A stretch of DNA of 64,000 bases from Crossaster papposus. Taxonomy: Eukaryota > Echinodermata > Asteroidea > Velatida > Solasteridae. The notes under the pieces are model-generated. The model was not told where the DNA came from and made no database searches. It was given only the letters and a program-made list of their open reading frames with translations. Every line of letters begins with the position of its first letter. Position 1 is the first letter of the stretch. Both the position numbers and the translations under genes were made by a program. This document shows positions 961-64,000 of the stretch, piece after piece. The DNA lies in contig JBAIAA010000315.1 in the NCBI GenBank assembly GCA_037893245.1, positions 496,001 through 560,000 of the forward strand. The letters run 5' to 3'.

Positions 961-981
961 GTTTCTCGCAGATTGCAAGAG
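961..981 (+). CDS. Micro-exon, 21 nt (VSRRLQE)
   Basis: A pyrimidine-rich tract and tttacag precede it, and gtaagtgtac follows. Phase 0 reads VSRRLQE without a stop. Flanking intron sequence closely matches the units at 55,347 and 61,157, but the exon itself is largely different, with about 9 of 21 positions shared with the 55,347 exon by hand count. It is inferred to be an internal cassette exon. Confidence 0.6.
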
Positions 982-5506: not shown

Positions 5507-5515
5507 CCTTTTGAT
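5507..5515 (+). CDS. Candidate 9-nt micro-exon (PFD), shifted acceptor
   Basis: In this unit the usual tttacag reads tttacat. The next AG is cgcaag, 15 nt downstream, leaving 9 nt (CCT TTT GAT) before gtaagtgtac. Had the upstream G been kept, the exon would be 24 nt and still in frame (GSPRKPFD). It could be a used shifted acceptor or a dead cassette. Confidence 0.35.
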
Positions 5516-6161: not shown

Positions 6162-6170
6162 TATTCACGG
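6162..6170 (+). CDS. Candidate 9-nt micro-exon (YSR), shifted acceptor
   Basis: It has the same arrangement as at 5507: tttacat in place of tttacag, then cgcaag, 9 nt, and gtaagtgtaa. It reads YSR in phase 0, or GSSRKYSR if the lost acceptor is imagined back. The arrangement is shared with units at 45,946, 50,729 and 62,206. Confidence 0.35.
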
Positions 6171-6404: not shown

Positions 6405-6428
6405 CCCGGACGTGGCAAAGAGTCACCG
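6405..6428 (+). CDS. Micro-exon, 24 nt (PGRGKESP)
   Basis: It lies between atttacag and gtaagtgtac and reads PGRGKESP in phase 0. Only about 235 nt separates it from the 6162 candidate, the closest spacing in this array. It is Pro/Gly/Lys-rich like several other cassettes. Confidence 0.6.
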
Positions 6429-7683: not shown

Positions 7684-7704
7684 GCCCCAGACAGGACGGC
7701 ACCG
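7684..7704 (+). CDS. Micro-exon, 21 nt (APDRTAP)
   Basis: It lies between ctttacag and gtgagtgtac and reads APDRTAP in phase 0. The exon and its gtgagt donor are identical to the cassette at 53,336 in the right array, and the flanking introns are very close too. This is the last ordinary cassette before the constant exons of the ZU5-death gene. Confidence 0.65.
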
Positions 7705-8759: not shown

Positions 8760-8814
8760 GAAACAAGCTTTGCTATAACAGCGGAGAAATCTGTGAATTT
8801 ACAATCATCTCCAG
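8760..8814 (+). CDS. First constant exon of the ZU5-death gene (55 nt)
   Basis: Acceptor ttgttttcag, donor gtacgt. In phase 0 it reads ETSFAITAEKSVNLQSSP and leaves one base, which joins the two bases at the start of the ZU5 exon to make Gly. This exon converts phase 0 (the phase of every micro-exon) to phase 1, the phase needed by the ZU5 exon. It is the main link between array and gene. Confidence 0.65.
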
Positions 8815-43450: not shown

Positions 43451-44568
43451 GTCAACATGAAAGTAGCTTTATATCAATTCAAATATATTTTTGGAGGAGT
43501 ATTTGGTAAACCACATAAACACAACAATTTTTTTTGTTAGTTTGCAAGCTAATTAATAGTCATTCATTTTCGTCGGTGCAAATATTACAAGCCAGTTGGA
43601 TATGCTGGACACAATATGAGGGCGGTATTTATGGCGGGGACGTCTTAGGGTTTGTTCCTTTATGAACCCACGCCAAATAGCGCCCTCTATGTGTACCACT
43701 TCTAAAAAGGGTTAAGACGTACATTAATAAATGGATTCATGCACGAATTACATGAATAAACGGCACTATTGTGGGGGAAAATAATAAATAATCATGATAA
43801 ATGTGCGTGGTGGTGCGTGAGTTTGTACATTGCGAGGGACTTCAACTTATCTTTAATCAAAATTTGAGAAACCAGATTTGCCTTATTTATGGTGTACAAC
43901 CACAAGATGATAATTTTATATCGTCTCAATAAGTCTTGGGAGAATGAGGTCCAGTCATTTTGTTTGTACACCTGCAGTTACCAGCTTTTTGTCTGGATTT
44001 ATTTTTGATGGTTTTAAAAATTGGAATGTACCTTAAGAAAACACTTCACAAGTTTGCATCTAACAGCGCTATAGTTGCCAAAACATTTATATATTATGTA
44101 CCAAACTTGTTTGTGTAGCACCATAGATCACAGAGTCATTTCTTTTACATACAATTTTATTCTAGACTATAGTCACAATCCATTTCAGAAACAATGTATT
44201 ATCGAAGCAAAACTTGTTTCTTGTTTTGGTTTTTGATAGGTATTCCTGCACCAATACCTCAGCTTGGTCAGAGACCAGACCAAGAACCAACGTCGGCGGT
44301 CGCTAGTCCTAGCTATGAAGATGTAAGTAACAAGACCAAGGATATTTGGAAGAGAGTTTACAACAGGCAGTACGTACAGTTGTTGCCTGACGTTGATAAT
44401 GACCAGAAGCACATAGCTGGCATATAAAGTAAAGTAAAGTAAAGGAACGGGTAGCAGTTGTCACTGGCCAGAAAAGAGAAACTGTAAACTCAACAGATCG
44501 AGTATGACAAAATATTCAGATTAAGATCAAGAACCGGGGAACTTATCAAACGCCTCGTTTACTGTGGT

Positions 44569-44910
44569 ATGGGAGGGGTCGGTAAGTCAACCATTTTTGG
44601 CAAGATTGTATACGATTGGGCCGATGAAGTAAGCGAAATCCTGAACAGATTCAAGCTCGTCTTTCTTTTAAAGATGTGTGCCATGTTGCAGGAATCTAAT
44701 CTCGTTGATTCCTCTTTCGATCATCTTCTCGGCAAAGATTCGGGAATAGCAAATGATGAACTTGATAAATTCATCATGACCAACCCTAATGAGGTCTTGA
44801 TTCTTTTGAATGGTTTTGATAACATTAGGACCAAAAACCACTCGATGCGGCCTCATTCGGTTCTCTCTTCAAGGCGCTCAATAGAAAATACAGCGAATGT
44901 CTCATATGTG
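44569..44910 (+). pseudogene. NACHT domain fragment
   Basis: It holds the P-loop GMGGVGKST, KIVYDWADEVSEILNRFK, the strand LVFLLKM, LLGKDSGIANDELDKFI and VLILLNGFDN. The usual Walker B acidic pair is altered (NGFDN where DGFDE is typical). A frame change near 44,855 puts LFKALNRKYSECLICV in another frame. The fragment ends at a C-rich tract. Confidence 0.8.
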
Positions 44911-44936
44911 TCCCCCCCCCCCTCCCCCCCCCCCTT
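44911..44936 (+). repeat. Poly-C tract at the NLR/array joint
   Basis: A run of C broken by one T separates NLR coding sequence from array-type sequence (aaacaaacttaagccg). In the array unit at 55,957 that same sequence is preceded by other array DNA instead. Confidence 0.9.
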
Positions 44937-45945
44937 AAACAAACTTAAGCCGAACCAAACAAATGTTATCACTATTTACACGAAATCTCGCTAAAATTAT
45001 TAAAATTATTGACAGAAGATCCACGATTCCAAATCGTGTACAAATCCTATGGAGGTCTTCCGAAAAACAAAAGATTATTCACAATCTGCGTTGTCCCTCC
45101 AGGGCCACCATACATGCCCTCCAATATTTTACAGGCCCAAAAATCTGTCATAGGCCCCAAATCTTTCGTAGGCCCCAAATCTTCTGTGTCGAAAAATAGC
45201 ACCGAAGCGGACTCGTCATTTCCATCTGAAAACAACATTATTTTTGTAATTTCTTTTAGAGGACGCAACTGTATATAGGTCTCAATTAGCCCTCTGCAAA
45301 GGTTTTATCTTCGGTGCAACATTTTGTCATGTAAAAGTTACTAATTGTTGTTTTAACCTAACAAGAAGTATACATGTAGATACCATAATACTATACAACA
45401 GTTACAATTCACCTCCAGCTAATAGACACATTTTGTAATCTACAAATTACACCGAAGCATTAATAAATTACACCATTGCAAGCTAAAGGAAGAAAGTGTA
45501 ACTTTAAAAAGGAAAGAAGTTTAGCTCCCGAGCCAGAAATATATCTTTACAAAGAAAAGCAAGTCTAGTCAATTTTCCTTCAACAACAAAACTTCTGAGT
45601 ATTACTGTTTCCCCAAGCCTTGCTTCACTCAATCTTTATGTTTTCGTGATTTCATTACACGACGGAGTTTTGCGTTTTCCTTGGAGGGCGATTTTACAGG
45701 TTCAACTTCTTTATACAATTATGTCATTGGAATTATAAAATATTCCAGAGGAAAGGAGGAAATATTCAGAAGAAAACGTTGAAACTTTGTAATAATATAT
45801 CCATTGAGACGTAAGATGAAGCCAAAGTGTTGAATCCTGTGCCATTGTCTTGGTTGGTATTCCCTTTATACACACTATTAAACTTTATCAATGAATGCAT
45901 TTCTAACATTTCTGTTTTGTTTCTTTACATGGCTCATCACGCAAG

Positions 45946-45954
45946 AAACGACGG
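45946..45954 (+). CDS. Candidate 9-nt micro-exon (KRR), shifted acceptor
   Basis: tttacat replaces tttacag. cgcaag is the next acceptor, then AAA CGA CGG and gtaagtgtaa. It is a sibling of 6162 and 50,729. Confidence 0.35.
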
Positions 45955-46673
45955 GTAAGTGTAAATTCGATTCGCCTTTACTGTTTAACTTCAGAGTTCA
46001 TATAAGTATATTTTACGGTTTTGCCATATCTGGTCGATATACTGTCATCAGTGTATATGCGATTTTTCTTCGTTAGTTTAAATCTGCCTGAAAATCATTG
46101 GTTCCAAATAAACTCTTACAGTGTTGAAGTCACTATTGCAGGGCTGCAATATTATATTTTTTGACTTAATGTCTTGCAAGACCAAACTCCACTTTAAACT
46201 ATAGTGTTATTCAATTTTACCAAAATGTTGTTGAAATTGTATACAAAATGTTTTAAAATGAGTAGGCCTATTACTGTTTCCCCAAGCCTTGCTTCACTCA
46301 ATCTTTCTGTTTTCGTGATTTTATTACACAGCGGAGTTTTGCGTTTTACTTGGAAGGCGATTTTACATTATTTTACTGAGGTTCAAAGCAACCACAGACT
46401 GAGTGAAACTCCCACTAACATCCAACGAATGTCGCTGGGTCAAAATGATCGCGATGATCTTGATACGACTGTTTACACATAATGTCTCTGGCGATTAGGA
46501 AGTTTTCTGTCTTTAATTATTTCCTCATCTGTTTTAATCAGTATCAGATGAAGACGAAAGATGAATACAAAGTGTTCAATCCTGTGCCATTTTTGTGGTA
46601 TTTATTTCCATTATACACACAATTAAACATGTTCAATTAATTTTTTTCTAAAATCTCTTTTGTTTCTTTACAG

Positions 46674-46697
46674 GGCTCAGCAGATGCGGGGCCACCG
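46674..46697 (+). CDS. Micro-exon, 24 nt (GSADAGPP)
   Basis: It lies between ctttacag and gtaagtgtac, phase 0. It is related to the cassettes at 52,716 (DPLDAGPL) and 59,061 (GPLDAGPS). Confidence 0.6.
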
Positions 46698-47382
46698 GTA
46701 AGTGTACATTCGATTCGCCTTCGCTGTTTAACTTCGGAGTTTATAAGTATATTTCACGGTTTTGCCATATCTGGATGATATACTGTCATCCGTGTATATG
46801 CGATATTTCTTCGTTAGTTTAACTCTGCCTGAAAATCATTGGTTTCATACAAACTCTTACATTGTTGAAGTCAATTGCAGGGCTGCAATATTATATCTTT
46901 TGACTTAATGGCATGCAAGACCAAACTTCACTTTAAACTACATTGTTAATAAATGTTACCGACATGTCAAGTACACTCATGGATCCTGTCTTGTAAAACT
47001 ATTATAGAATGCATAAACACGAATGGTAATTACTTCACTGTCAACCTGCATTACAGTTGCAACCGAATCGTTTCCATGCTGCAAAAAAAACGAACATTTG
47101 TACCGGGGAAAAAGAGTCTGAAGAGTGGCAGAACGATCTTCATTTGTTAACGACTTTGTGCCATGCCATGTTTGAGTTCTTGTTGCATACAAATATGAGT
47201 GAATATAGAACTAAATATGTAATACTATTATGACCAATACACGATATGAATACGACATTTTTCGTATTATTAGTGGAACGTTACCTCCCAATTATTTACA
47301 AAATCGTTTCGGTCGTCAGATAAAAACAATGTATATTTTGGTCCAAGATGTTTTCTCACACATCTCATTTATTTCCTTGCAC

Positions 47383-47403
47383 CTGCAATTTGAGCTGTCG
47401 TCA
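47383..47403 (+). pseudogene. Dead class B micro-exon (LQFELSS)
   Basis: The donor gtaagttta is kept but the acceptor reads ttgcac instead of ttgcag. Its sibling at 62,107 keeps ttgcag. The 21 nt are still open. Confidence 0.5.
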
Positions 47404-47875
47404 GTAAGTTTATGCCGTCATTATTAATGACTTGTTATTTCAGAATGCAATAGAATTTCGCTCTGTCTGGAAATGACAGTTGAATATAACATCGCCATTA
47501 GCTTTTATGAGCCTCTGAGTGACTTTCAAGCGCATCCCTTCACGCTGTCTTAAAAATTATACAGAATGACAACATTTTACTCTCAACCAGCTTTAAACAT
47601 CCAACGAATATATCGTTGTGTCACAAAGATCGAGATTGCTTGTGACTACGATGAGGAGTTGTCTGTCGTTTGAGCTCCTTTTGCACAAAATAACAGGAAA
47701 TAGAATTAATAATAAATATGACCAACACACGATATAAATATGACAAGATTCGTATTATTAATTGCGAGCGTATCAACGGTAGTTTACTGGGATTCAAAAT
47801 AACCACAGACTGAGTGAAAATCCCACAACCATCCAACGAATGTCGCTGGGTCAAAATGATCGACATTATAATGAC

Positions 47876-48041
47876 ATGGAAATGGGCATGGTGTGATTTT
47901 GCAAACAGCTCCACTTAATCCATTGTTTGTGTTCTCCCCCCAACTCTGTATGCTTGTGTACGTGTATCCCCTTATGTTTGCTTCTTGTACCACTATGTCA
48001 TTTTGAATGCAAAACCACACTATGCACATTTCTAGTGTTTG
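47876..48041. mobile_element. Small inverted-repeat element
   Basis: gaaatgggcatggtgtgatt (47,879 on) and aaccacactatgcacatttc (inverted partner) bracket about 165 bp of non-coding DNA inside the array. Confidence 0.5.
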
Positions 48042-48189
48042 TCCCAACAATCGTTAATTGAGACTGAATAATGGATTACAATTTAAAAAAAATCGTTTTA
48101 ATACATGTACTCCAACAATTACTTCTGGTCGGATGACGTCACAATTGACGAACTTCGCAAATTAAATTACGTTTTGTACATGTACATGT

Positions 48190-48356
48190 CATATGAATAT
48201 CAGGTTAAACCCTCTCGTGACCGGCCACTCTCCTAATTATCTTCACTTAGTCATGCGCAATACTATACGAATGAGTCCGGATTTTATAAAGTCTGAAATT
48301 CATGCCAAATTAAAACCAGACGTCCAAATTTTGGTCAAATGTCCTCCAGGCGATTA
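48190..48356 (+). repeat. VTYKYQVKP block, copy with broken frame
   Basis: Closely matches the blocks at 51,715 and 57,690 in sequence, but a small indel breaks the frame. It ends in cctccaggcgattag like the others. Confidence 0.6.
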
Positions 48357-49544
48357 GTGTATGCAAGTCGTCTCAGTACAGTGCAAATCCCCTCAACTCC
48401 TATACCACTGTATCGTTTGGGAACGTAATGTTGTTCGAAAGTCCTAAGAACAGTCGAAGAACATCGGGCTTATCAAATCGGATAATCTTATGTATTACGC
48501 GGATATGTACGTATACGTATTTAATTAATTGTAATCTCCTCAATATACATTGTAATACAGTGGGCCTACATAATATTTTCGTGTGCGTTGTCATTTATCG
48601 ATCATTCCCTTCTTATTGATTATTTTACTGAGGTTCAAAGCAACCACAGACTGACTGAAAATGCTACCAACATCAAACAAATGTCGCTGGGTCAAAATGA
48701 TCGAGATTATCTTGATATGACTCGGTGCAAAACGTTTGTTATGTATAGGTTACTACTTGTTGTTTTAACCTTCCAAGAAGTATACATGTAGATACCATAA
48801 TACTATATAGAACAATTACATTTCATCTCCAGCCAATAGACACATTTTTTAATTCACAAATCACACACATGCAATCGTAAGGAAGAAAACATGACTTTAA
48901 AAAAGAGAAGTAATTTACCTATAGCCAGAAATTTGATATTTCAGCAAGTTCAGTCACATTTTTTCGAAACAAATATCCGAGGCTATTTCTCCCACCCATT
49001 CCACGCCCCTTGTTTCACGTTTATTTCGCGGTTTCGCCCCATCTGCTCGATATATTGTCACCAATTATGGCATTTACATAATTTCCGAATTCAGAAGAAT
49101 TGTTTTCCTGTCAGGAAATGACATAGTTGCTTCGATATAAAATCGTCATGTTAGGAGAGTCTGGGTGCCTTTTTAAGATGCCAAGTACACCCCTGGATCA
49201 TGTCTTGTAGAACGATTATAGAATGCATTAAAACAAATGGTAATGATTTCAACCTGTCAACCTGCTTTAAAGTTGTAACCGAAGCATTCATAAATCACCC
49301 AATTGCAAGCGAAAGGAAGAAAGTGTAACTGTTAAAGGAAATAAGTTAACCTCCCCAGCCGCAAAGAGATATTTACAAAGTTCATTTTGCATACAAGTGA
49401 ATATAGAACCAACTTTCGTTCTATTGGTTACAAGTTTTCCGCCATTTGTTTAAGTTTATTTTTATCGTCAGATAAAAACAATGTATGTTCTTATAAATGT
49501 TTTTTTACTATTGTAATGTTCACATCTCTTTCATTTCCTTGCAG

Positions 49545-49565
49545 GTGCCAATGGATATTCCTATG
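49545..49565 (+). CDS. Micro-exon, class B, 21 nt (VPMDIPM)
   Basis: Acceptor catttccttgcag, donor gtaagttta, phase 0. It is a close relative of 54,127 (MPMDTPM) and 57,240 (MSMDTDR). Confidence 0.62.
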
Positions 49566-50414
49566 GTAAGTTTATGCTGTCATTAGAGAGGTTGAGATTT
49601 ATATGCATGTGCGGGTATACGTAAGCGTACTATCAGTTTACAAAAAAACCAAACACGTTCTCACTTTTCATCATAAGCGCATGTGTGTGATTTCATGGGT
49701 TCAGAACCAAGTTTACCCCAAATGTTTACAACATTTTAAGACGATTGCCTTGCGATACCAACAATAGTATGAAATCAGTTTTGTTATTTTATAAATACAC
49801 TGATTTAAGATGCCTTGTAGATTGGCTACCTTGTGGTTTAGCGCTATTGTTCGTCAGTATCGATCGCCATGCCATGTTTGAGTTCTTGTTGCATACAGAT
49901 ATTATTGAATATAGAACCAACTATGTAATACTATTATGATCAATACACGATCAATTATTTTGCCAGGAAACCAGACTAGCTGCCTTGTTTGTAACTAAAA
50001 ACTAGTGTTTCTTTCTCTGTCTTTGATAGTTTGTTTTTGCTCATAGAGGTTCAGCTATACATATGACTTACTTTCCATTCCCTTCTACTGAAATTGAATG
50101 GGTTAACACGAACCCAATGTGTTTTTTCCGATATTTTGTTCCCTTTACTTACGATATTATGGGCTGGCCCTTCCTCTCATAAATCACCCAATTGCAAGCG
50201 AAAAGAAGAAAGTGTAACTTTAAAAAGAAAAGAAGTTAACCTCCTGAGCCAGAAATAGATATTTACAAAGAAAAGCAAGACCAGTCAAATTTCCTGTAAC
50301 AACAACCAAACTTCTGAGTGTTACTGTTTCCCCAAACCTTGCTTCACTCAATCTGTCTGTTTTTGTGATTTCATTACACGACGGAGTTTTGCGGTGGTTT
50401 GTTTGTTTGTTGTT

Positions 50415-50450
<36 letters not shown>

Positions 50451-50464
50451 GGGGGGGGGGGGGG
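50415..50464 (+). repeat. T-run/G-run composite tract
   Basis: About 30 T directly followed by about 15 G. The paralogous spot at 63,217-63,246 has a similar T-then-G tract. Confidence 0.9.
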
Positions 50465-50728
50465 TGATTTTACAGGTTCAACATTACTTCTTTTTACAAT
50501 TATTTCATTGGAATTAAACAAAATTAATCCATAGGAAAGGAGAAAATACCCAGAAGAAAACGTTGAAACTTTGCAATAATATATCCATTGAGACGTAAGA
50601 TGAAGACAAAGTGTTGAATCCTGTGCCATTTTCTAGTATTTATTCCCTGTATACACACAATTAAACTTCATCAATGAATGCTTTTCTAACATTTCTGTTT
50701 TGTTTCTTTACATGGTTCATCACGCAAG

Positions 50729-50737
50729 TCTCTTACG
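50729..50737 (+). CDS. Candidate 9-nt micro-exon (SLT), shifted acceptor
   Basis: tttacat, then cgcaag, TCT CTT ACG and gtaagagt. The donor differs slightly from the other class A units. Confidence 0.33.
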
Positions 50738-51227
50738 GTAAGAGTAAATTCGATTCGCCTTCACTTTTTAACTTCGGAGTTCATATAAGTTTATTTCAAG
50801 GTTTCGCCATAATCTGGTCGATATTCTGTCACTAATTATGGCATTTACATAATTTCTAAATTCAGAAGAATGAGTTCCTGCCAGGAAGTGACATAGTTGC
50901 TTCGATATAAGATCTTCAATACATGTTAGGAGCCTCAGGGTACCAAGTACATCCCTGGATCCTGTCTTGTAGAACGATTATAGAATGCATTAAAACGAAT
51001 GGTAATAATTTCACTGTCAACCTGTTTTAAAAAGTGTAATTTTAAAAAGGAAAGAAGTTAGCCTCCCCAGCCAGAAATAAATATTTTACAAAGTTTATTT
51101 TGCATACCGGTATAAGTGAATAGAACCAACTTTCGTTTTATTTCGGTTACAATAAAGTTTATTTTTATCGTCAGATAAAAACAATGTATATTCTTAAAGA
51201 TGTTTTCTTACTATTGTAATGTTCACA

Positions 51228-51240
51228 TTTAAGTTAAGTT
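51228..51240 (+). pseudogene. Class B unit with exon deleted
   Basis: The flanking class B intron words are present (actattgtaatgttcacat and gttaagtttatgctgtc), but the acceptor and exon between them are missing. Confidence 0.5.
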
Positions 51241-51650
51241 TATGCTGTCATTAGAGAGGTTGAGATTTATATGCAGGTGCGGGTATACGTTAGCATACTA
51301 TAAGTTTACCAACAAAAAAAGACACGTTCTCAGTTGTCATGTGTGTGATTTCATGTGCTCAAAACCAAGTTTATCCCAAATGTTTACAACATGTTTAAGA
51401 CGCTTGACTTGGAATACCAACAATAGTATGAAATCATCAGTTGTTTTTATTGTATAAATACACTGATTAATGATGCCTTGTAGATTGGCTACCTTGTGAT
51501 TTAGCTCTATTGTTCGTCAGTACCGATCGCTTTCCATTTTGCCGCATACATATACCTACGTAGTTCATTAATCTTAGTCGGATTTGTTATAAAGAGTCAA
51601 TTTTTCATGGTTTGGCCAGGGTTGGTTAAGATTAGACAACCTGTTCCATA

Positions 51651-51884
51651 ATGGTCATCAAAAAGGAGTTGAATCACTTTGTTTATCACTCGTGTGAGTT
51701 CATTATGCCGGTGACATATAAATATCAGGTTAAGCCCTTTCACGTGACCGGTCAATATCCTAATTATCTTCACTTAGCCATGCGCAATACTATACAAATG
51801 AGTCCGGATTTTATAAAGTCTCAAATTTATGCCAAATTAAAACCAGACGTCCAAAATTTGGTCAAATGTCCTCCAGGCGATTAG
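51651..51884 (+). repeat. VTYKYQVKP block with open frame, copy A
   Basis: A frame containing VTYKYQVKPFHVTG, NYLHLAMRNT, MSPDFIKSQIYAKLKPDVQ and ending LVKCPPGD-stop. The copy at 57,675 keeps the same frame and stop, while two others are broken. It could be an alternative terminal exon or chance. Confidence 0.35.
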
Positions 51885-51980
51885 TGTATACAAGTCGTCT
51901 CAGTACAGTGCAAATCTATACACACACAATTAAACTTTATCAATTAATATTTTTATAACAACTCTTTTGTTTCTATACAG

Positions 51981-52004
51981 AGATCACCACGCAAGGTGCA
52001 AACG
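51981..52004 (+). CDS. Micro-exon, 24 nt (RSPRKVQT)
   Basis: It lies between ctatacag and gtaagtgtac, phase 0. It aligns with the shifted-acceptor units (atcaccacgcaag is shared) but keeps the upstream AG, showing the presumed ancestral 24-nt form. Confidence 0.62.
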
Positions 52005-52715
52005 GTAAGTGTACATTCGATTCGCCTTTACTGTTTAACTTTGGAGTTCATATAAGTATATATTGACGGTTTTGCCATATCTGGTCAATATACTGTCATC
52101 AGTGTATATGCGATTTTTCTTCGTTAGTCTAAATCTGCCTAAAAATCATTGGTTCCAAATAAACTCTTACAGTGTTGAAGTCACTATTACAGGGCTGCAA
52201 TATTAAATCTTTTGACTTAATGTCGTGCAAGACCAAACTCCACTTTAAACTACAGTGTTATTCAATTTTACCAAATTGTTGGTTAAATTGTATAAAAAAA
52301 AATTAAAATGAGTATTGCTGTTTCCCCAAGCCTTGCTTCACTCAATCTTTCTGTTTTCGTGATTTTATTACACAGCGGAGTTTTGCGTTTTTCTTGGAGG
52401 GCGATTTTAAAACTTTTTTACTGAGATTCAAAGCAACCACAGACTGAGTGAAATTCCCACCAAAATCCAACGAATGTCGCTAGGTCAAAACGATCGAGAT
52501 TCTCTTGATACGACTGTTTAATGTCTCTGGCGATTAGGGAGTTTTCTGCCTAGAATTATTCCCTCTTCTGTTTTAATGAAGTATCAGTTGAAGACGTAAG
52601 ATGAATACAAAGTGTTCAATCCTAAGCAATTTTCTTGGTATATATTTCCTTTATACACACAATTGAACATTTTCAAATAGTGTTTTTCTAAAATCTCTTT
52701 TGTTTTTACTTACAG

Positions 52716-52739
52716 GACCCACTAGACGCGGGGCCATTG
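52716..52739 (+). CDS. Micro-exon, 24 nt (DPLDAGPL)
   Basis: It lies between acttacag and gtaagtgtac, phase 0. It belongs to the same subfamily as 46,674 and 59,061. Confidence 0.6.
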
Positions 52740-53335
52740 GTAAGTGTACATTCGATTCGCTTTTGCCATATCTGGTCGATATTCTTATAATTATATTATA
52801 TATTTACATAATTTCAAACTTCAAAAGATTTTTTTCCTGTCAAGAAATTACATAATTTCTGCTTCGATATAAAATCGTCAATACATGTTAGGAGCCTCTG
52901 GGTGCATTTTTAAGATGCCAAGTACACCCCTGGACCCTGTCTTGTAGAACGATTATAGAATGAATTGAAACGAATGGTAATGATTTCACTGATTTCAACC
53001 TGCTTTAAAGTTGTAACCGAAGCACTCATAAATCACCCAATTGCAAGCGAGAGGAAGAAATGGAAAAAGGAAAGAATTTAACCTCCCGAGCCAGAAAAAG
53101 ATATTTGCCAAGAAAAGCAAGTCCAGTCAAATTTTCTTTAATAAAACAAATCCAGAGGATAGGCGAACATATCCAGAAGAAAACGTTGAAACTTTGTAAT
53201 AATATATTTATTGAGACGTAAGATGAAGACAAAGTGTTGAATCCTGTGCCATTTTCTTGTTTTTTATTCCCAAAATACACACTATTAAACTTTATAAATG
53301 AATGTTTTTCTAACATCTCTTTTGTTTCTTTACAG

Positions 53336-53356
53336 GCCCCAGACAGGACGGCACCG
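53336..53356 (+). CDS. Micro-exon, 21 nt (APDRTAP)
   Basis: Identical in exon and gtgagt donor to the 7684 cassette of array 1, with very similar flanks. The best example of sharing between the arrays. Confidence 0.65.
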
Positions 53357-54126
53357 GTGAGTGTACATTCGATTCGCCTTTACTGTTTAACTTCAGAGTT
53401 CATAAGTATATTTCACGGTTTTTGACATATCTGGTCGACATACTGTTATCAGTGTATATGCGATTTGTTTTCGTTAGTTTAACTCTGCCTGAAAATCATT
53501 GGTTCCATATCAACTCTTACTTTGTTGAAGTGTTTTGCAGGGCTGCAATATTAATTCTTTTAACTTGATGTCGTGCAAGACAAAACTCCATTTTAAACAA
53601 TTTATCAATTTTACCACCAATTCTGTCACCAATTGTGGCATTTACATAATTTCAAAATTCAGAAGATTTTTTTCCTGTCAGGAAAAGACATAGTTGCTTC
53701 GATGTAAAATCGTCAATCTATGTTAGAAGCCTCTGGGTGCCTTTTTAAGATGCCAAGTACACCCCCTGGATCCTGTCTTGTATATAGAACGAGTATAGAA
53801 TGCATTAAGACGAATGGTAATTATTTCAACCTGTCAACCTGCTTTAAAGTTGTAACTTAAGCATTCATAAATTACCCAATTGCAAGCGATAGGAAGAAAG
53901 TGTAACTGTTAAAGGAAATAAGTTAACCTCCCCAGCCAGAAAGAGATATTTTACAAAGTTCATTTCGCATACAGATATAAGTGAATATAGAACCAACTTT
54001 CGTTCCATTGCGGTTACAAGTTTTCCGCCATTTTTTAAAGTTTATTTTTATCGTCAGATAAAAACAGTGTATGTATAGATGTTTTCTTACTATTGTAATG
54101 TTCACATCTCTTTCATTTCCTTGCAG

Positions 54127-54147
54127 ATGCCAATGGATACTCCTATG
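54127..54147 (+). CDS. Micro-exon, class B, 21 nt (MPMDTPM)
   Basis: Acceptor ttccttgcag, donor gtaagttta, phase 0. It contains in-frame ATG codons. Confidence 0.62.
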
Positions 54148-55346
54148 GTAAGTTTATGCTGTCATTAGAGAGGTTGAGATTTATATGCATGTGCGGGTAT
54201 ACGTAAGCATACTATCAGTTTACAAAAAAACAAAACACGTTCTCACTTTTCATCATAAGCGCATGTGTGTGATTTCATGGGTTCAGAACCAAGTTTACCC
54301 CAAATGTTTACAACATTTTAAGACGATTGCCTTGGGATACCAACAATAGTATGAAATCATTTTTGTTATTTTATAAATACACTCATTTAAGATGCCTTGT
54401 AGATTGGCTACCTTGTGGTTTAGCGCTATTGTTCGTCAGTATCGATCGCCATGCCATGTTTGAGTTCTTGTTGCATACAGATATTATTGAATATAAAACC
54501 AACTATGTAATACTATTATGATCGATACACGATCAATGATTTTGTCTGAAAACTAGACTAGCTGCCTTGTTTGTAACTAAAAACTAGTGTTTCTTTCCCT
54601 GTCTTTGATAGTTTGTTTTTTGCTCATAGAGGTTCAGCTACATATGACTTACTTTCCATTCCCTTCTACTGAAATTGAATGGGCTGAAAACGAACCCAAT
54701 GTGCTTTTCCGATATTTTGTTCCTTTTACTCACGATAATATGGGCTGACACTCCCTCTCTGACTATATGAACCCTGTGGTGAGCGTCCGTGTGTATGTAT
54801 GAGCGTCCGGGGCCCAATTCGTGTCCCAGTTCGCCCCTGTTGAGGTCATTTTGCGTACACTAAGAGTAAATATGATCAATACTCGAAAAGAGATAATTTC
54901 AGTGTCGTTGATTGCAAGTCGCCACCCATGTTTTGTTGTGTTTGTTCGGTCGTATTATTATTATGGTATTTATTTGTCCACGCTTGTCAAATACGTTTTC
55001 CCACCATTCTTTTAATTAGTTTTCTATTCGCATCATAACATTTGTTTTGAGTGTATCAATGAGATTCAAAATTACCACAGACTGAGTACAAATGCTACCA
55101 ACATCGAGATTGTCAAAATGATCGAGATTATCTTGATATGACACAAAATGTCTCTGGCGATTAGGGAGTTTTCTGTCTAGAATTATTCCCTCTTCTGTCA
55201 GTTTAATGAAGTATCAGTTGAAGACGTAAGATGAATACAAAGTGTTCAATCCTAAGCCATTTTCTTGATATTTCTTTTCTATAAACACACAATTAAATAT
55301 TTTTTCAATTAATGTTTTTTCCAACAACTCTTTTATTTGTTTACAG

Positions 55347-55367
55347 AGAGATTACAGTGTGAAACGG
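55347..55367 (+). CDS. Micro-exon, 21 nt (RDYSVKR)
   Basis: It lies between tgtttacag and gtaagtgtac, phase 0. Intron flanks are very similar to those of 961 and 61,157, while the exon is unlike both. Confidence 0.6.
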
Positions 55368-56089
55368 GTAAGTGTACATTCGATTCGCCTCCGCCGTTTA
55401 ACTTCGGAGTTTATAAGTTTATTTCACGGTTTCGCCATATATGGTCAATATACTGTCACCAGTTATGGCATAATTTCAAAATTGAGAAGAATTTCTCCCT
55501 GTAAGGAAATGACATAGTTGCTTTGATATAAAATCGTCAATATATGTTAGGAGTTCATAGAAGTTTAATTAACCGCTTCGCCATATCTGGTCGATATAGG
55601 CCTACTGTCATCAATTATGGCGAAATATACGTGTACTGTCACCAATTATTATCAGTTATGAGATTTACATATTTTCAGAATGCAGAATTCTCTGTCTGGA
55701 AATGACGTAGTTGTTTCAATATAAAATCGTGAATTTAGTTAGGAGCCTCTGGGTGCCTTTTTTTATAATATCAAGTACACTCATGGATCCTGTCTTGTAG
55801 AACGAGTATAGAATGCGTAACAACGAATGGTAGTAATTTCAACCTGTCAACCTGCTTTAAAGTTGCAACTGAAACATTTCCATGCTGCACGAAAACCTAA
55901 CATATTTACCGGGAAAAGTGTCTGAAGAGTGGCAAAACGATCTTCATTTTTTAAAACAAACTTAAGCCGAACCAAACAAAATGTTATCACTATTTACACG
56001 AAATCCCGCTAAAATTATTACAATTATTGACAGAAGGTCCACGATTCCAAATCGTGTACAAATCCTATGGAGGTCTTCCGAAAAACAAA

Positions 56090-56237
56090 AAAAGTCTTGA
56101 TTTTTGATGCGAATGTTGACGTCGATATTCGCGACTTTCGGGGAAAGTCGTGAGATTTGACGCGAATATCGACGTCAAAATTGGCGACTTAGGGAAAAGT
56201 CGTGAAATTTGTCGTAAATATTGACGTCAATAATCAC
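56090..56237. repeat. GACGTC-rich insertion with hairpin arms
   Basis: gacgtcgatattcgcg and cgcgaatatcgacgtc form perfect 16-bp inverted arms around a cgactttc/gaaagtcg stem. A third ttgacgtcaa follows. The sister unit at 45,070-45,090 runs from gaaaaacaaaa to cacaatctgcg without this insert. Confidence 0.7.
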
Positions 56238-57239
56238 GATCTGCGTTGCCCCACCATACATGCCCTACAATATTTTGCAGGCCCCCAATTTTTTCGTAGG
56301 CCCCCAAATATACCACCAAATCTTCTGTGTCAAAACATAGCACCGAAGCGGACTCGTCATTTCCATCTGTAAACAACTTTATGTTTGTAATTTCAGTTAA
56401 ATTTCTTTTAGAGGACGCAACTGTGTATATATAGGTCTCAATTAGCTCTCTCAAAAGGTTTTATCTTCGGTGCAAAATTGTGTTGTGTAAAAGTTAATAC
56501 TTGTTGTTTTAACCCACCAAGAAGTATACATGTAGATACCATAATAATAATTATATAGAACAGTTACATTTCACCTCCAGCTAATAGACACATTTTTTAA
56601 ATTTCACAAATCACACACAATGCAATCGAAAGGAAGAAAACATGACTTTAAAAAAACAAGTAATTTACCTATAGCCAGAAATTTGATATTTCAGCAAGTT
56701 CAGTCACATTTTTTTCAACACAAATATCCGAGGCTACTTCTCCCACCTCTTGTTTCACGCCCCTTGTTTCACGTTTATTTTACGGTTTCGCCCCATCTAG
56801 TCGATATACTGTCACCAATTATGGCACTTACATACTTTCAAAATTCAGAAGATTTTTTTCCTGTCAGGAAATGACATAGTTGCTTTGATATAGAATCGTC
56901 AATATATAGGAGCCTCTGGGTGCCTTTTTAAGATGCCAAGTGCACCCCCTGGATCCTGTCTTGTAGAACGATTATAAAATGCATTGAAACGAATGGTAAT
57001 TATGTCACTGTCAACCTGTTTTAAACAGTGTAACTTTAAAAAGGAAAGAAGTTAGCCTCCCCAGCCAGAAATAGATATTTTACAAAGTTTATTTTGCATA
57101 CCGGTATAAGTGAATAGAACCAACTTTCGTTTTATTGGTTACAATAAATTTTATTTTTATTGTCAGATATAAACAATGTATATTCTTAAAGATGTTTTCT
57201 TACTATTGTAATGTTCACATCTCTTTCATTCCTTTGCAG

Positions 57240-57260
57240 ATGTCAATGGATACTGACAGG
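57240..57260 (+). CDS. Micro-exon, class B, 21 nt (MSMDTDR)
   Basis: Acceptor cctttgcag, donor gtaagttta, phase 0. It is the third member of the class B Met/Asp-rich subfamily. Confidence 0.6.
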
Positions 57261-57674
57261 GTAAGTTTATGCTGTCATTAGAGAGGTTGAGATTTATATG
57301 CATGTGCGTGTATACGTAAGTTTACCAACAAAAAAGACACGTTTTTAGTTGTCATCTTAAGCGCATGTGTGTGATTGCATGTGTTTAAAATCAAGTTTAA
57401 CTCAAATGTTGGAAACATTTTAAAACGATTGCCTTGGAATACCAACAATAGTATGAAATCATCAGTTTTTTTATTGTATAAATACACTGATTTAAGATGC
57501 CTTGTAGATTGAATATCTTGTATCGATCGCTTTCCATTTTGCCTCATACATACCTACGTAGTTCTTTAATCTTAGTAAATTTTTCATGGTTTGGCCAGGG
57601 TTGGTTAAGATTAGACAACCTGTTCCATTATGGTCATCAAAAAGGGTGTTGAACCACTTGTTTATCACTCGTGA

Positions 57675-57863
57675 GTGTTCTTTATGTCGGTGACATATAA
57701 ATATCAGGTTAAACCCTCTCACGTGACCGGTCACTCTTCTAATTATCTTCACTTTGTCATGCGTAATACTATACCAATAAGTCCGGATTTTATAAAGTCT
57801 GAAATCCATGCCAAAATAAAACCAGACGTCCAAATATTGGTCAAATGTCCTTCAGGCGATTAG
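57675..57863 (+). repeat. VTYKYQVKP block with open frame, copy B
   Basis: The same frame as 51,651-51,884, reading VTYKYQVKPSHVTG, SPDFIKSEIHAKIKPDVQ and LVKCPSGD-stop. Confidence 0.35.
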
Positions 57864-58091
57864 TGTATACAAGTCGTCTCAGTACATTGCAAATCCCCTC
57901 AACTCCTATCACTGTACTGTTTGGGAACGTAATGTTGTTCGGAAGTCCTAAGAACAGTCGAAGAACATCGGGCTTATCAAATCGGATAATCTTATGTATT
58001 ACACGGATATGTTAGTATACGTATTTATTTAATTGTGATCTCCCCAATATACATTATAACACAAACATGCTATTTGTCTTCGTTAGTTTAA

Positions 58092-58459
58092 AGGGATCGT
58101 ACATGTTTGGTAATTACTCCAAAAATGTATGGCAAAAGTACAGCAGCTTTGGATGGTATAATGCATTTTTAGAAACTGTTCACTTCGAAGTACTGCAGTT
58201 ATGGAAAAAGATATCACTTTTTATCCCCAAAAATTTAAATCTGAGAAGCGTTACTGCAGTGACGTTTCTCAGATTGTGTATTCCAATGCAGATTATTCTT
58301 CCTGCGTGGACATAACCGCTCCAGATTTTCGGCAATATCTCAAAATTGCTACCACCTTTTGAAATGAAAGGTTTAAATGTTAGTTTTATGGTATATATCT
58401 ATAACTATATAGGATTGAAACAAACAATGGGTTCCAATTACCAAACGTATACGATCCCT
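58092..58459. mobile_element. AGGGATCGTA MITE, 368 bp, TTAA-flanked
   Basis: The ends agggatcgtacatgtttgg and ccaaacgtatacgatccct are inverted repeats. TTAA lies on both sides (58,088-58,091 and 58,460-58,463). Sister array units read cgttagtttaactctgcc uninterrupted. TA as the duplication with AAGGGATCG ends cannot be excluded. It is non-coding. Confidence 0.9.
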
Positions 58460-59060
58460 TTAACTCTGCCTAAAAATCATTGGTTCCAAATAAACTCTTA
58501 CAGTGTTGAAGTCAATATTACAGAGCTGCAATATTATATCTTTTGACTTAATGTCGTGCAAGACCAAACTCTACTTTAAACTACACTGTTATTAAATTTT
58601 AGCAAAATGTTGATGAAATTGTATACAAAAAGTTTTTTTAAATGAGTATTACCGTTTCCCCAAGCCTTGCTTCACTCAATCTTTCTGTTTTCGTGATTTT
58701 ATTACACAGCGAAGTTTTGCGTTTTTCTTGGAAGGCGATTTTACATTATTTTACTGAGGTTCAAAGTAACCACAGACTGAGTGAAATTCCCACCAACATC
58801 AAACGAATGTCGCGGGGTCAAAATGATCAAGATTATCTTGATACGACTGTTGACACACAATGTCTCTGGCGATTAGGGAGTTTTCTGTCTAGAATTATTC
58901 CCTCATCTGTTTAATGAAGTACCAGTTGAAGACGTAAGATGAATACAAAGTGTTCAATCCTAAGCCATTTTCTTGGTAGGCCTATATTTTTCCGTTATAC
59001 ACACAATTGAACAGTTTCAAATAATGTTTTTTCTAAAATCTCTTTTGTTTTTATTTACAG

Positions 59061-59084
59061 GGCCCACTAGACGCGGGGCCATCG
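59061..59084 (+). pseudogene. Micro-exon with lost donor (GPLDAGPS)
   Basis: The acceptor atttacag is good, but the donor reads ataagtgtac instead of gtaagtgtac. The 24 nt are open. It should not splice normally. Confidence 0.5.
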
Positions 59085-59789
59085 ATAAGTGTACATTTGA
59101 TTTGCCTTTTACGGTTTCGCCATATCTGGTCGATATTCTGTCACCAATTATGGCATTTACATAATTTCAAACTTCAGAAGAATTTCTTCCTGTTAAGAAA
59201 TTACATAATTTTTGATTCGATATAAAATCGTCAATACATGTTAGGAGCCTCTGGGTGGGTGCCTTTTTAAGATTCCAAGTACACCCTTGGACCCTGTCTT
59301 GTAGAACGATTATAGAATGCATACAAACGAATGGTAATTATTTCACTGATGTCAACCTGTAACCGAAGCATTCATAAACCACCCCATTGCAAGCGAAAGA
59401 AAAAAAGTGTAACTTTAAAAGAGAAAGAAGTTAACCTCCCGAGCCAGGAAAAGATATTTACAAGGAAAAGCAAGTCCAGTCCAATTTTCTTCAACAACAA
59501 CAAAACTTCTGAGTATTACTGTTCCCTCAAGACTTGCTTCACTCAATCTGTATGTTTTCGTGATTTCATTACACGACAGAGTTTGCTTTTTTATTTGAGG
59601 GCAATTTTACAGGTTTAACTTATTTATACAATTATGTCATTGGAATAAAACAATCCAGAGGTAAGGAGGAAATATCCAGAAGAAAACGTTGAAACTTTGT
59701 AATAGTATATATTTATTGAGACGTAAGATGAAGACAAAGTGTTGAATCCTGTGCCATTTTCTTGGTTTGTATTCCCTGTTTTTTTACAG

Positions 59790-59810
59790 CTTTCACCCAG
59801 GCAGAGACGG
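59790..59810 (+). CDS. Micro-exon, 21 nt (LSPRQRR)
   Basis: It lies between tttttacag and gtaagtgtac, phase 0. The exon is Arg-rich. Confidence 0.6.
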
Positions 59811-61156
59811 GTAAGTGTACATTCGATTCGCCTTCACTGTTTAACTTCGGAGTTCATTTAAGTATATATTTCACGGTTTGGCCATATCTGGTCGATATAC
59901 TGTCATCAGTGTATATGCGATTTTTATTCGTTAGTTTAAATCTGCCTGAAAATCATTGGTTCCATATAAACTCTTACATTGTTCAAGTCAATTGCAGGGC
60001 TGCAATATTATTTCTTTTGACTTAATGTCGTGCAAGACCAAGAAGTGTCTTGTAAAACGATTATAGAATGCATAGAAACGAATGGTAACTATTACACTGT
60101 CAACCTGCTTTAAAGTTGCAACCGAAACATTTTCATGCTGCACGAAAACCTAACATATTTACCGGAAAAAGAGTCTGAAGAGTGGCCGAACGATCTTCAA
60201 TTTTTTTTTACGACTTTGTGTTATGCCATGTTTGAGTTCTCGTTGCATACAGATATAAGTGAATATAGAACCAACTATGTAATACTATTATGATCAATAC
60301 ACGATCAATTATTTTGTCAGGAAACCAGACTAGCTGCCTTGTTTGTAACTAAAAACTAGTGTTTCTTTCCCTGTCTTTGATAGTTTGTTTTTACTCATAG
60401 AGGTTCAGCTACGTATGACTTAATTTCCATTACCTTCCATTGAAATTGAATGGGCTGAAAACGAACTCAATGTGCTTTTTCTGATATTTTGTTCCTTTTA
60501 CTCACGATAATAATGGGCTGGCCCTCCCTCTATGACTATAGGAACTCTGTGGTGAGCGTCCGTGCGTATGTATGAGCGTATGTGTCCCAGTTCGCCCCTG
60601 TTGAGGTCCTTTTGCGTACACTAATAGTAAATAGAATTCACCATCTAATTATGACCAATACTCGAATAGAGATAATTTAAGTGTCGTTGATTGCAAGTTG
60701 CCACCCATGTTTTGTTGTGTTCGTTCAGTCGTAATATTATTAAGGTATTAATTTGTCCACGCTTGTCAAATAGGCCTACGTTTTCTCACTATTCTTTAAT
60801 TTTGTTTTGTATTCGCAGCACAGCATTTGTTTTGAGTGTATCAATGTAGTAGTATACTGAGATTCAAAATAACCACAGACTCAGTGAAAATGCTACCAAC
60901 ATCCAACAAATGTCGCTGGGTCAAAATGATCGAGATTATCTTGATATGACTGTTTACACACAATGTCTCTGGGCGATTAGGGGTTTTCTATTTAGAATTA
61001 TTACCTCCTCTGTTTTAATGAAGTATCGGTTGAAGAAGTAAAATGAAGACAAAGTGTTCAATCCTAAGCCATTTTCTTGGTTTTTCTGTTATATATACAC
61101 ACAATTAAACTGTATCAATTAATGTTATTTATCATATCTATTTTGTTTCTTTACAG

Positions 61157-61177
61157 CGCCGACCCATGCAGTCACCG
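61157..61177 (+). CDS. Micro-exon, 21 nt (RRPMQSP)
   Basis: It lies between ctttacag and gtaagtgtac, phase 0. It sits in the same super-unit position as 961 and 55,347 with a different exon sequence. Confidence 0.6.
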
Positions 61178-61397
61178 GTAAGTGTACATTCGATTCGCCT
61201 TCACTGTTTAACTTCGGAATTCATATAAGTTTATTTCATGGTTTCGCCATATCTTGTCGATATTGTGTCACCAATTATGGCATTAACATAATTTCAAAAT
61301 TTAGAAGAATGTCTCCCCGTCAGGTTCACATAGTTGCTTCGATATAAAATTGTCAATGCATGTTAGGAGTCCCTGGGTGCTTTACAGTTCTTTACAG

Positions 61398-61418
61398 TTC
61401 CTACCCATAAGGCCAATA
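61398..61418 (+). CDS. Micro-exon, 21 nt (FLPIRPI), doubled acceptor
   Basis: tttacagttc occurs twice in a row. Using the second AG gives 21 nt in phase 0 before gtaagtgtac, and using the first would give 31 nt and break the frame. It lies only about 220 nt after the 61,157 cassette. Confidence 0.5.
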
Positions 61419-62106
61419 GTAAGTGTACATTCGATTCGCCTTCACTTTTTAACTACGGAATTCATAATTATATTTCACGGTTTTGTCATATCTGGTCGAC
61501 ATACTGTAATTAGTGATTATGCGAATGTTTTTCGTTAGTTTACTTCTGCCTGACTATCATTGGTTCCATATAAACTCGTACATTATTGAAGTCAATTGCA
61601 GGGCTGCAATATATTAATTATTTGTACTTAATGTCGTGCAAGACCAATCTCCACTTTAAACTACAGTGTTATTCAATTTTACTGAATTGTTAAGTACACT
61701 CATGGATCCTGTCTTGTAAAACGATTATGGAATGCATTAAAACGAATGGTAATTGCTTTTCACTGTCAACCTGCTTTGAAGTTGCAACCGAAACATTTCC
61801 ATGCTCCACGAAAACCTAACATATTTACCGGGAAAAGAGTCTGAAGAGTGGCAGAACGATCTTAAATTTTTTAACAACTTTGTGCCATGCCATGTTTGAG
61901 TTCTTGTTGCATACAAATATGAGTGAATATAGAACCAACTATGTAATACTATTATGACCAATACACGATATGAATACGACATTTTTCGTATTATTAGTGG
62001 AAAGTTACCTCCCAATTATTTACAAAATCGTTTCGGTCGTCAAATAAAAAAAATGTATATTTTGGTCCAAGATGTTTTTTCACACATCTCATTTATTTCC
62101 TTGCAG

Positions 62107-62127
62107 CTGCAATTTGAGCAGTCATCA
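62107..62127 (+). CDS. Micro-exon, class B, 21 nt (LQFEQSS)
   Basis: Acceptor ttccttgcag, donor gtaagttta, phase 0. It is the live sibling of the dead 47,383 copy. Confidence 0.6.
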
Positions 62128-62205
62128 GTAAGTTTATGCCGTCATTATTAATGAATGCTTTTCTAACCTTTCTGTTTTGTTTCTTTACATGGCTCATCAC
62201 GCCAG

Positions 62206-62214
62206 AATGTAGGG
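62206..62214 (+). CDS. Candidate 9-nt micro-exon (NVG)
   Basis: Only 78 nt after the previous cassette. tttacat, then cgccag as acceptor (a better AG context than the cgcaag siblings), AAT GTA GGG and gtaagtgtaa. Confidence 0.38.
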
Positions 62215-63216
62215 GTAAGTGTAAATTCGATTCGCCTTTACTGTTTAACTTCAGAGTTCATATAAGTATATTTTACGGTTTTGCCATATCTGGTCGATAT
62301 ACTGTCATCAGTGTGTATGCGATTTTTCTTTGTTAGTTTAAATCTGCCTGAAAATCATTGGTTCCATATAAACTATTACATTGTTCAAGTCAATTGCAGG
62401 GCTGCGATATTAATTCCTTTGACTTAATGTCGTGAAAGACCAAACTCTACTTTAAACTACAGTGTTAATAAATGTTACAGAAATGTCAAGTACACTCATG
62501 GATCATGTCTTGTAAAACGATTATAGAATGCATACAAACGAAATGCAATTATTTCACTGTCAACCTGCTTTAAAGTTTCAACCGAAACATTTTCATGCTG
62601 CACAAAAACCTAACATATTTACAGGGAAAACAGTCGGAAGAGTGGCAGAACGATCTTAATTTTTTTAACAAGTTTGTGCCATGCTATGTTTGAGTTCTTG
62701 TTGCATACAGATATTAGTGAATATAGAACCAACTATGTAATACTATTATGATCAATACACGATCAATTATTTTGTCTGGAAACCAGACTAGCTGCCTTGT
62801 TTGTAACTAAAAACTAGTGTTTCTTTCCGTGTCTTTGATAGTTTGTTTTTACTCATAGAGGTTCAGCTACGTATGACTTACTTTCCATTACCTTCCATTG
62901 AAATTGAATGGGCTGAAAACGAACCCAATGTGCTTTTCCCGATATTTTGTTCCTTTTACTCACGATAATATGGGCTGGCCCTCGCTCTCATAAATCACCC
63001 AATTGCAAGCGAAAGGAAGAGAGTGTAACTATAAAAAGGAAATAAGTTAACCTCCTGAGCCAGAAATAGATATTTACAAAGAAAAGCAAGTCCAGTCAAA
63101 TTTCCTTTAACAACAACAAAACGTCTGAGTATCATGTTTCCCCAAGCCTTGCTTCATTCAATCTGTCTGTTTGCGTGATTTCATTACACGACGGAGTTTT
63201 GCGGTGTTTGTTTGTT

Positions 63217-63248
63217 TTTTTTTTTTTTGGGGGGGGGGGGGGGGGGAG
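63217..63248 (+). repeat. T-run/G-run composite tract, second copy
   Basis: A T run followed by a long G run, at the same place in the unit as 50,415-50,464. Confidence 0.9.
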
Positions 63249-63508
63249 GGGAGGGCGATATTACAGGTTAACTTCTTTTTACAATTATGTAATTGGAATT
63301 AAACAAAATTAAACCATAGGAAAGGAGAAAATATCCTGAAGAAAACGTTGAAACTTTGTAATAATAATCCATTGAGACGTAAGATGAAGACAAATTGTTG
63401 AATCCGGTGCCATTTTCTAGGGTTTTATTCCCTGTATACACACAATTAAACGTTATCAATGAATGTTTTTCTAACATTTCTGTTTTGTTTGTTTACATGG
63501 CTCATCAG

Positions 63509-63526
63509 TCACGCATGAGTGCACTG
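63509..63526 (+). CDS. Candidate 18-nt micro-exon (SRMSAL)
   Basis: tttacat again, but here ctcatcag offers an acceptor and 18 nt read SRMSAL in phase 0 before gtaagtgtaa. It is a variant of the shifted-acceptor subfamily. Confidence 0.38.
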
Positions 63527-64000
63527 GTAAGTGTAAATTCGATTCGCCTTTACTGTTTAACTTCAGAGTTCATATAAGTTTATTTTACGGTTTCGCCATA
63601 TCTGGTCGATATACTGTCATCAGTGTATATGATATTTGTCTTCGTTAGTTTCAATCTGCCTGAAAATCATTGGTTCCATAAAAACTCTTACAGTGTTGAA
63701 GTCAATTGCAGGGCTGCGATATTAATTCGTTTGACTTAATGTCGTGGAAGACCAAACCCCACTTTAAACTACAGTGTTAATAAATGTTACTGAAATGTCA
63801 AGTACACTCATGAATCCTACTACTTGTTGTTTTAACCTAACAAGAATTACTGTTTCCCCAAGCCTTGCTTCACTCAATCTTTATGTTTTTGTGATTTTAT
63901 TACACGGCGGAGTTTTGCGTTTTTTCTTTGAAGGGCGATTTTACAGGTTCAACTCCTTTGGAATTATAAAAAAAGTCCAAAGGAAAGAAAGAAATATCCT

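Follow-up and report, generated by a model that had tools for sequence, protein, structure and literature searches.

Are the tiny candidate exons carried by a tandem repeat of the sea star Crossaster papposus genuine coding sequence and, if so, to which gene do they belong? The question is raised by a window of 64,000 nucleotides (nt) that spans positions 496001-560000 of contig JBAIAA010000315.1 (hereafter C315) in an assembly of 1.02 Gb and 1841 contigs. Its right part is a tandem repeat in a single orientation (704 of the 709 self-matches of the whole window are direct) whose modules carry the exons under study. On the evidence of the DNA presented below, we consider it likely that these arrays are real coding cassettes of micro-exons, read in phase 0, that specify a hypervariable N-terminal stretch of a tandem ZU5-UPA-Death gene family.

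A first-pass annotation of the window had described at least 18 candidate exons of 9, 18, 21 or 24 nt on one strand, each with a length divisible by three and free of stops in phase 0, and our recount of the right array (45946-63526, + strand) returned all 18 with these properties [Table 1]. The splice-like borders it had proposed are intact as AG...GT in 17 of them, the exon at 59061 being followed by a dead donor (ATAAGT). The exons belong chiefly to two families. Those of the A family follow a tract resembling TTTGTTTCTTTACAG and precede a donor resembling GTAAGTGTACATTCGATTCGCC; the corresponding flanks of B exons resemble CATTTCCTTGCAG and GTAAGTTTATGCTGTCATTAG. In a subfamily termed A9 the usual AG has been lost (ACAT for ACAG), and the first AG that follows yields exons of 9, 12 or 18 nt. 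Eight A exons of 21 or 24 nt with intact borders, four B exons of 21 nt, the 24-nt A exon with the dead donor and five exons of 9 or 18 nt that begin at a downstream AG make up the right array. Beyond the window it continues as far as 566.6 kb of the contig, with 27 entries of our exon table falling within 541-567.5 kb, and an array of the same type occupies the left end of the window (961-7704). A and B copies were found by donor similarity, both for this inventory and for the length-rule, periodicity and neighbour-pair sets used below.

Chance as a source of such borders was assessed in a control run at five thresholds with general splice-site weights, which also served for the UPA-Death exon borders and for the scan of contig C344 described further on. 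The strictest threshold returned 11 AG...GT pairs on the + strand (10 of them multiples of three) and none on the - strand, against a shuffled mean of 0.2; the loosest returned 22 and 11, respectively, against a shuffled mean of 14.3. The excess over chance is thus limited to good sites. The first-pass annotation had argued that random AG...GT windows would not preserve length modulo 3 and phase over so many units.

Family members share ancestry, and the agreement of all lengths with a multiple of three does not amount to 18 independent trials. When exon starts were set mechanically at the first AG, 58 of the 60 distinct exons were multiples of three (9, 12, 15, 18, 21, 24 or 27 nt), and both exceptions belong to one doubled-AG lineage (61398 in the window) that measures 31 nt by the first AG and 21 by the second. 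Of 103 donor matches, 21 are absent from this set (non-GT donors in 10 A and one B, no tract in eight B, and two at an edge), and the two distinct 31-nt exons were afterwards dropped from it as well. A genome-wide pattern permitting inserts of 9-30 nt gave 84 matches, every one a multiple of three (18, 21 or 24 nt), and none in the control. All 29 exon length changes on tree edges were multiples of three, a count that is partly built in by the prior exclusion of the 31-nt lineage, whereas the same holds for only 14 of 133 intron indels. In the TTTACATG class (23 distinct copies), the tract-to-donor distance is 31, 32, 34 or 35 and the first AG still leaves 9, 12 or 18 nt.

The reading phase emerges from the distribution of stops and of variable positions. 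Among 92 distinct exons of a wider genome set, stops number 0, 16 and 15 in phases 0, 1 and 2, compared with shuffled means of 17.8, 15.0 and 15.0 and a phase-0 minimum of 6 in 3000 shuffles; the 34 exons first met in the genome-wide pattern search have 0, 1 and 7. In the window set (12 A exons and four A9 copies), donor-relative positions -1, -4, -7 and so forth are conserved and the others are not, the conserved ones being third codon positions in phase 0. This periodicity is pronounced in 27 A exons of at least 15 nt (0.67 and 0.64 at first and second positions against 0.36 at the third; P=5e-5 by column permutation), extends to 18 exons of 9-12 nt (P=0.012) and was found again in the 34 newly seen exons (24 after collapsing; P=0.0017). 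Across 63 nearest-neighbour edges connecting 83 A exons, the ratio of non-synonymous to synonymous divergence (dN/dS) is 4.03 in phase 0 (bootstrap 2.85-6.51), 0.71 in phase 1 and 0.55 in phase 2, while the ZU5 exon taken as a control gave 0.57 (eight copies, no stops). Purifying selection in phase 2, which a value of 0.55 would permit, was rejected, as stops occur in that phase at the chance rate and the exons outpace the introns by far. In a far larger set of exons than had been noticed, stop avoidance, codon periodicity and the keeping of length all uphold the in-frame phase-0 cassettes proposed at the outset.

Variation is also confined to the exons. In the 9-nt class (16 distinct copies), mean diversity is 0.047 in the 15 bases preceding the exon, 0.621 within it, 0.099 between +3 and +22, and 0.146 between +23 and +45; the copies were picked only by TTTACATG and by the likeness of their donor to a 22-base sequence (at most 6 mismatches), and the contrast stayed when remeasured without the pattern that holds 22 upstream and 8 downstream bases constant. 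In three tandem units, the slot right after a truncated NACHT relic has surroundings that align almost throughout, and its exons, which measure 27, 9 and 18 nt, are mutually dissimilar. Mean divergence in 33 neighbour pairs, restricted to exons with a multiple-of-three length, is 2.4% in the downstream and 5.5% in the upstream intron, against 33% at codon positions 1 and 2 and 14% at position 3 of the exon. Identical exons recur across different arrays, according to the genome-wide matches and to a table made by hand from 57 of 69 exon rows, among them three with dead donors and two with a lost AG. Phase-0 stop avoidance, exon-confined variation, the sparing of third positions and a dN/dS of about 4 in the A family are our grounds for concluding, at the level of sequence, that the array exons are translated cassettes shaped by diversifying selection, or were so until recently.

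Which gene would translate them is suggested by what follows the arrays. Over 264 kb of C315 the order array, 55/76-nt exon, ZU5, UPA exons, Death is repeated, with four ZU5 and three NACHT copies, a NACHT relic preceding the next array at three places. The conserved exon measures 76, 55, 76 and 55 nt in the four C315 units, and its length is 55 nt at five further loci; phase-0 entry was chosen for it on the ground that its exit then falls in phase 1, as the ZU5 exon requires. The domain calls are firm for ZU5 (Pfam E 1.3e-19) and Death (Pfam E 1.7e-15), and the joined exons match UNC5B (E 7e-16) in an alignment that passes beyond ZU5 into UPA. Among solved structures, ZU5 is closest to ZO-1 and UNC5B, and Death to CRADD and PIDD. 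Protein searches returned two and four relatives, and those with a named source belong to Patiria miniata, another sea star; the best of these, LOC119735182 (69% identity over 66% of the query), is a record of 472 amino acids that begins inside ZU5, continues with UPA-like sequence and ends soon after a Death domain. An HFT motif lies near the ZU5/UPA border in all eight copies; a literature search on UNC5CL autoproteolysis produced no match.

The association holds beyond the window. The 84 micro-exon pattern matches are confined to four of the 1841 contigs, namely C315, C441, C536 and C591, and the same four carry 26 ZU5 copies, all open and 92-100% identical, the next relative standing at 54%. 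No fewer than 83 of the 84 matches lie upstream of a ZU5 exon on the same strand and contig; conversely, 21 of the 26 ZU5 copies have at least one exact-pattern exon upstream and two of the remaining five have looser ones. At five array-downstream loci on other contigs or strands, the conserved exon was present in four and ZU5 in three, the next ZU5 lying beyond the stretch for two. Because nearly all matches precede an open ZU5 exon and the phases of the 55/76-nt exon fit, we read the arrays as part of the ZU5 genes; they do not look free-standing, and order and phase together would place the cassettes at the protein N-terminus. An ATG element with a phase-0, B-type donor, found on the same four contigs in 17 near-constant copies (16 reading MSSSSGF and one MSPSSGF), is a candidate first coding exon for some of these genes. 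Two pairs of stretches from contigs C536 and C591 are 99.6% (L003/L004) and 99.3% (L006/L007) identical, their A exons agreeing and one B-type donor differing; they are probably two alleles or a recent duplication, and the true number of genes may be lower if they are alleles.

Contig C344 holds a cluster of more distant ZU5 copies (41-42%; stretches L036 and L037), and L036 contains, in addition, a different dense tandem repeat. A splice-pair scan of 2 x 10 kb before this cluster revealed no micro-exons of the A or B kind; the pairs on the ZU5 strand were four of 14 nt inside the tandem repeat (L036) and one of 33 nt with a stop (L037).

Several observations weigh against assigning the arrays to translated ZU5-UPA-Death genes. 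The A9 exons rely on a CAAG-type border after the lost ACAG, and damaged cassettes are present (the dead donor at 59061, the lost AG at 47395). Taken alone, the B family is weak, with a periodicity P of 0.17 and a dN/dS of 1.14 on five edges. Third codon positions vary more than introns (14% vs 2.4%, P=0.009), and cassette recombination or exchange, or a raised mutation rate, may therefore add to selection. The 55/76-nt exon is open in both phase 0 and phase 1 in all nine copies, and distances from pattern match to ZU5 (median 14.9 kb) reach 104 kb, the far assignments being weak. Within the gene body, phase demands an extra exon of 3n+2 nt between 14066 and 14518, where none was found, and a Pfam search of the joined exons gave no UPA match. 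The MSSSSGF element, lastly, is absent from both arrays of the window.

Some of these points bear on other explanations. Each array might constitute a separate secreted gene that resembles the micro-exon genes (MEGs) of schistosomes, has first and last exons of its own and merely neighbours ZU5. The form is alike, with tiny symmetric exons, and translation from an ATG in the tract preceding the 9-nt exons gives MNAFLTFLFCFFTWLITQ, which by eye resembles a signal peptide. However, this reading exits in phase 1 rather than phase 0 and is open in four but closed in three of the seven distinct copies in which the ATG was present (picked by the pattern that holds 22 upstream and 8 downstream bases constant); a terminal exon belonging to such a gene did not turn up, although no dedicated search was made, and the conserved exon beside the arrays can accept phase 0 and fits the ZU5 exon. 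We hold a separate gene of this kind to be unlikely, and rejected the MNAFLTFLFCFFTWLITQ tract as a signal-peptide first exon, given its closed copies, the 16 phase-1 stops in 92 exons and a variability that follows phase-0 codons. The NACHT gene was likewise discarded as a host for the arrays: its exon is cut off at a poly-C stretch in all three units, its copies (those at 493.0 and 649.3 kb of C315 were compared with that of the window) differ by frame-changing indels, and the Patiria relative ends soon after Death.

Alternatively, the variation may stem mainly from a targeted process acting on the cassettes, such as hypermutation or exchange between repeats, with selection only filtering frame. 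Both the excess of third-position differences between neighbouring copies over introns and the recurrence of identical exons across arrays are what such a process could leave, but a frame-blind mechanism would neither spare third positions nor keep phase 0 free of stops, and as the main source of variation it strikes us as highly improbable. That the arrays are relics or a non-coding repeat, in which exons of an old gene were copied along with their introns and have fallen out of use, finds some encouragement in the repeat-rich background, the damaged cassettes and the NACHT relic beside the array; it is barely credible in view of the complete lack of phase-0 stops in 92 exons, lengths kept at multiples of three, unlike intron indels, and exons that are far more diverged than introns and diverge with codon phase.

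Table 1. Array exons and associated features; positions refer to the window unless a contig is given.
Feature	Position	Strand	Length (nt)	Peptide	Remark
Right array, A9 exon	45946..45954	+	9	KRR	begins at downstream AG
Right array, A exon	46674..46697	+	24	GSADAGPP	
Right array, degenerate B exon	47395..47403	+	9	LSS	own AG lost; begins at next (downstream) AG
Right array, B exon	49545..49565	+	21	VPMDIPM	
Right array, A9 exon	50729..50737	+	9	SLT	begins at downstream AG
Right array, A exon	51981..52004	+	24	RSPRKVQT	
Right array, A exon	52716..52739	+	24	DPLDAGPL	
Right array, A exon	53336..53356	+	21	APDRTAP	
Right array, B exon	54127..54147	+	21	MPMDTPM	
Right array, A exon	55347..55367	+	21	RDYSVKR	
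Right array, B exon	57240..57260	+	21	MSMDTDR	
Right array, A exon	59061..59084	+	24		dead donor ATAAGT
Right array, A exon	59790..59810	+	21	LSPRQRR	
Right array, A exon	61157..61177	+	21	RRPMQSP	
Right array, A exon	61398..61418	+	21	FLPIRPI	doubled AG (31-nt alternative)
Right array, B exon	62107..62127	+	21	LQFEQSS	
Right array, A9 exon	62206..62214	+	9	NVG	begins at downstream AG
Right array, A9-type exon	63509..63526	+	18	SRMSAL	begins at downstream AG
Left array, A exon	961..981	+	21	VSRRLQE	
Left array, A9 exon	5507..5515	+	9	PFD	
Left array, A9 exon	6162..6170	+	9	YSR	
Left array, A exon	6405..6428	+	24	PGRGKESP	
Left array, A exon	7684..7704	+	21	APDRTAP	
Conserved exon	8760..8814	+	55		proposed phase 0 in, phase 1 out
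ZU5 exon (incl. start of UPA)	9477..10129	+			phase 1 in, phase 0 out
UPA exon 1 (proposed)	11103..11234	+			phase 0-0; like Patiria LOC119735182
UPA exon 2 (proposed)	12280..12453	+			phase 0-0; like Patiria LOC119735182
Exon between UPA and Death	13778..14066	+			proposed borders
Death domain exon	14518..14773	+			
Truncated NACHT relic	44498..44917	+			directly before array in 3/3 units compared
ATG element copies	C315:419076, 422292, 425507, 671305				and 13 further places

Open reading frames of a non-LTR (long terminal repeat) retrotransposon, encoding endonuclease and reverse transcriptase, lie within the left array (1926-5141, + strand), and an insertion resembling a miniature inverted-repeat transposable element, spotted by eye, sits inside the right array at about 58090-58460 with inverted ends AAAGGGATCGTAC ... 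GTATACGATCCCTTT. Elsewhere in the window are open reading frames with a DDE_Tnp_4 transposase domain (23118-24431, + strand), a YqaJ-like recombinase / viral alkaline exonuclease domain (25617-26603, - strand) and an EF-hand (28088-28594, - strand), the last having opposite-strand relatives in the other three units of the 264-kb stretch.

If the arrays do belong to the ZU5-UPA-Death genes, splicing would join a subset of cassettes to the 55/76-nt exon and the ZU5-UPA-Death body and, since all cassettes are symmetric, any subset would preserve the frame, each gene thereby yielding many short variable N-termini. The variable residues might contact fast-changing non-self molecules or serve as their bait, while the ZU5-UPA-Death module would relay the signal to death-fold partners; diversifying selection and a death-fold body are both suggestive of such a recognition function. 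We put forward more tentatively, as a possibility we rather doubt, that the family forms an intracellular recognition repertoire of a new kind, a micro-exon library per gene spliced into N-terminal baits, in a combinatorial analogue of the NLRP1/CARD8 tripwire. Should the reading of the arrays as N-terminal cassettes hold, selection would be acting on cassettes of 3 to 9 amino acids amid almost fixed introns and on top of a body devoted to death-domain signalling, offering a directly testable case of how recognition repertoires may arise in animals without antibodies; micro-exon diversification might then also have originated a second time, outside schistosomes. The first-pass annotation knew of no described echinoderm counterpart, and the open-access literature, among the matches listed, likewise holds nothing on micro-exon arrays in echinoderms.

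In its body, the proposed protein resembles UNC5 and PIDD, ZU5 matching UNC5B and Death matching CRADD and PIDD. It departs from them in its 26 near-identical copies with micro-exon arrays in front, and no netrin-receptor ectodomain or transmembrane exon turned up between array and ZU5, where no specific search was made. NLRP1 and CARD8 combine a fast-evolving N-terminal part with a FIIND, which corresponds to ZU5-UPA, and a death-fold tail, HFS being the autoproteolysis motif of the FIIND. The layout proposed here would be analogous, a variable N-terminal part being followed by ZU5-UPA and a death-fold domain, and HFT recalls HFS; unlike in NLRP1 and CARD8, the last domain is Death rather than CARD, and variation is encoded as micro-exons. 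Sea urchin 185/333 (SpTrf) and arthropod Dscam are also diversified invertebrate families with tandem copies or cassette exons, although the proteins are different and we know of no tandem micro-exons of the present kind in either.

The likeness to schistosome MEGs that had been suggested for this locus is reasonable as an analogy of form. Both have many very small symmetric exons permitting in-frame skipping, and both evolve fast. In one MEG study, the mature regions of MEG-1, -9 and -15 have dN/dS values of 1.10-1.14 and the schistosome protein VAL-6 is described as carrying a MEG-like part, joined to another gene (PMC4350168; see also PMC10526429). The value of about 4 obtained here exceeds that range, with the reservation that it compares paralogous exons rather than species and that the methods differ. 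The phylum is also different, and the likeness is one of form. Here the exons are copies of a few families within a tandem intron repeat; the array precedes a ZU5-UPA-Death gene, and the proposed gene has large ZU5, UPA and Death exons besides. As to a signal peptide, the sole signal-like reading encountered lies out of cassette phase and is closed in three of seven distinct copies. The arrays would work like a micro-exon gene without being a member of that group, schistosome MEGs being their closest analogue in form and not their kin.

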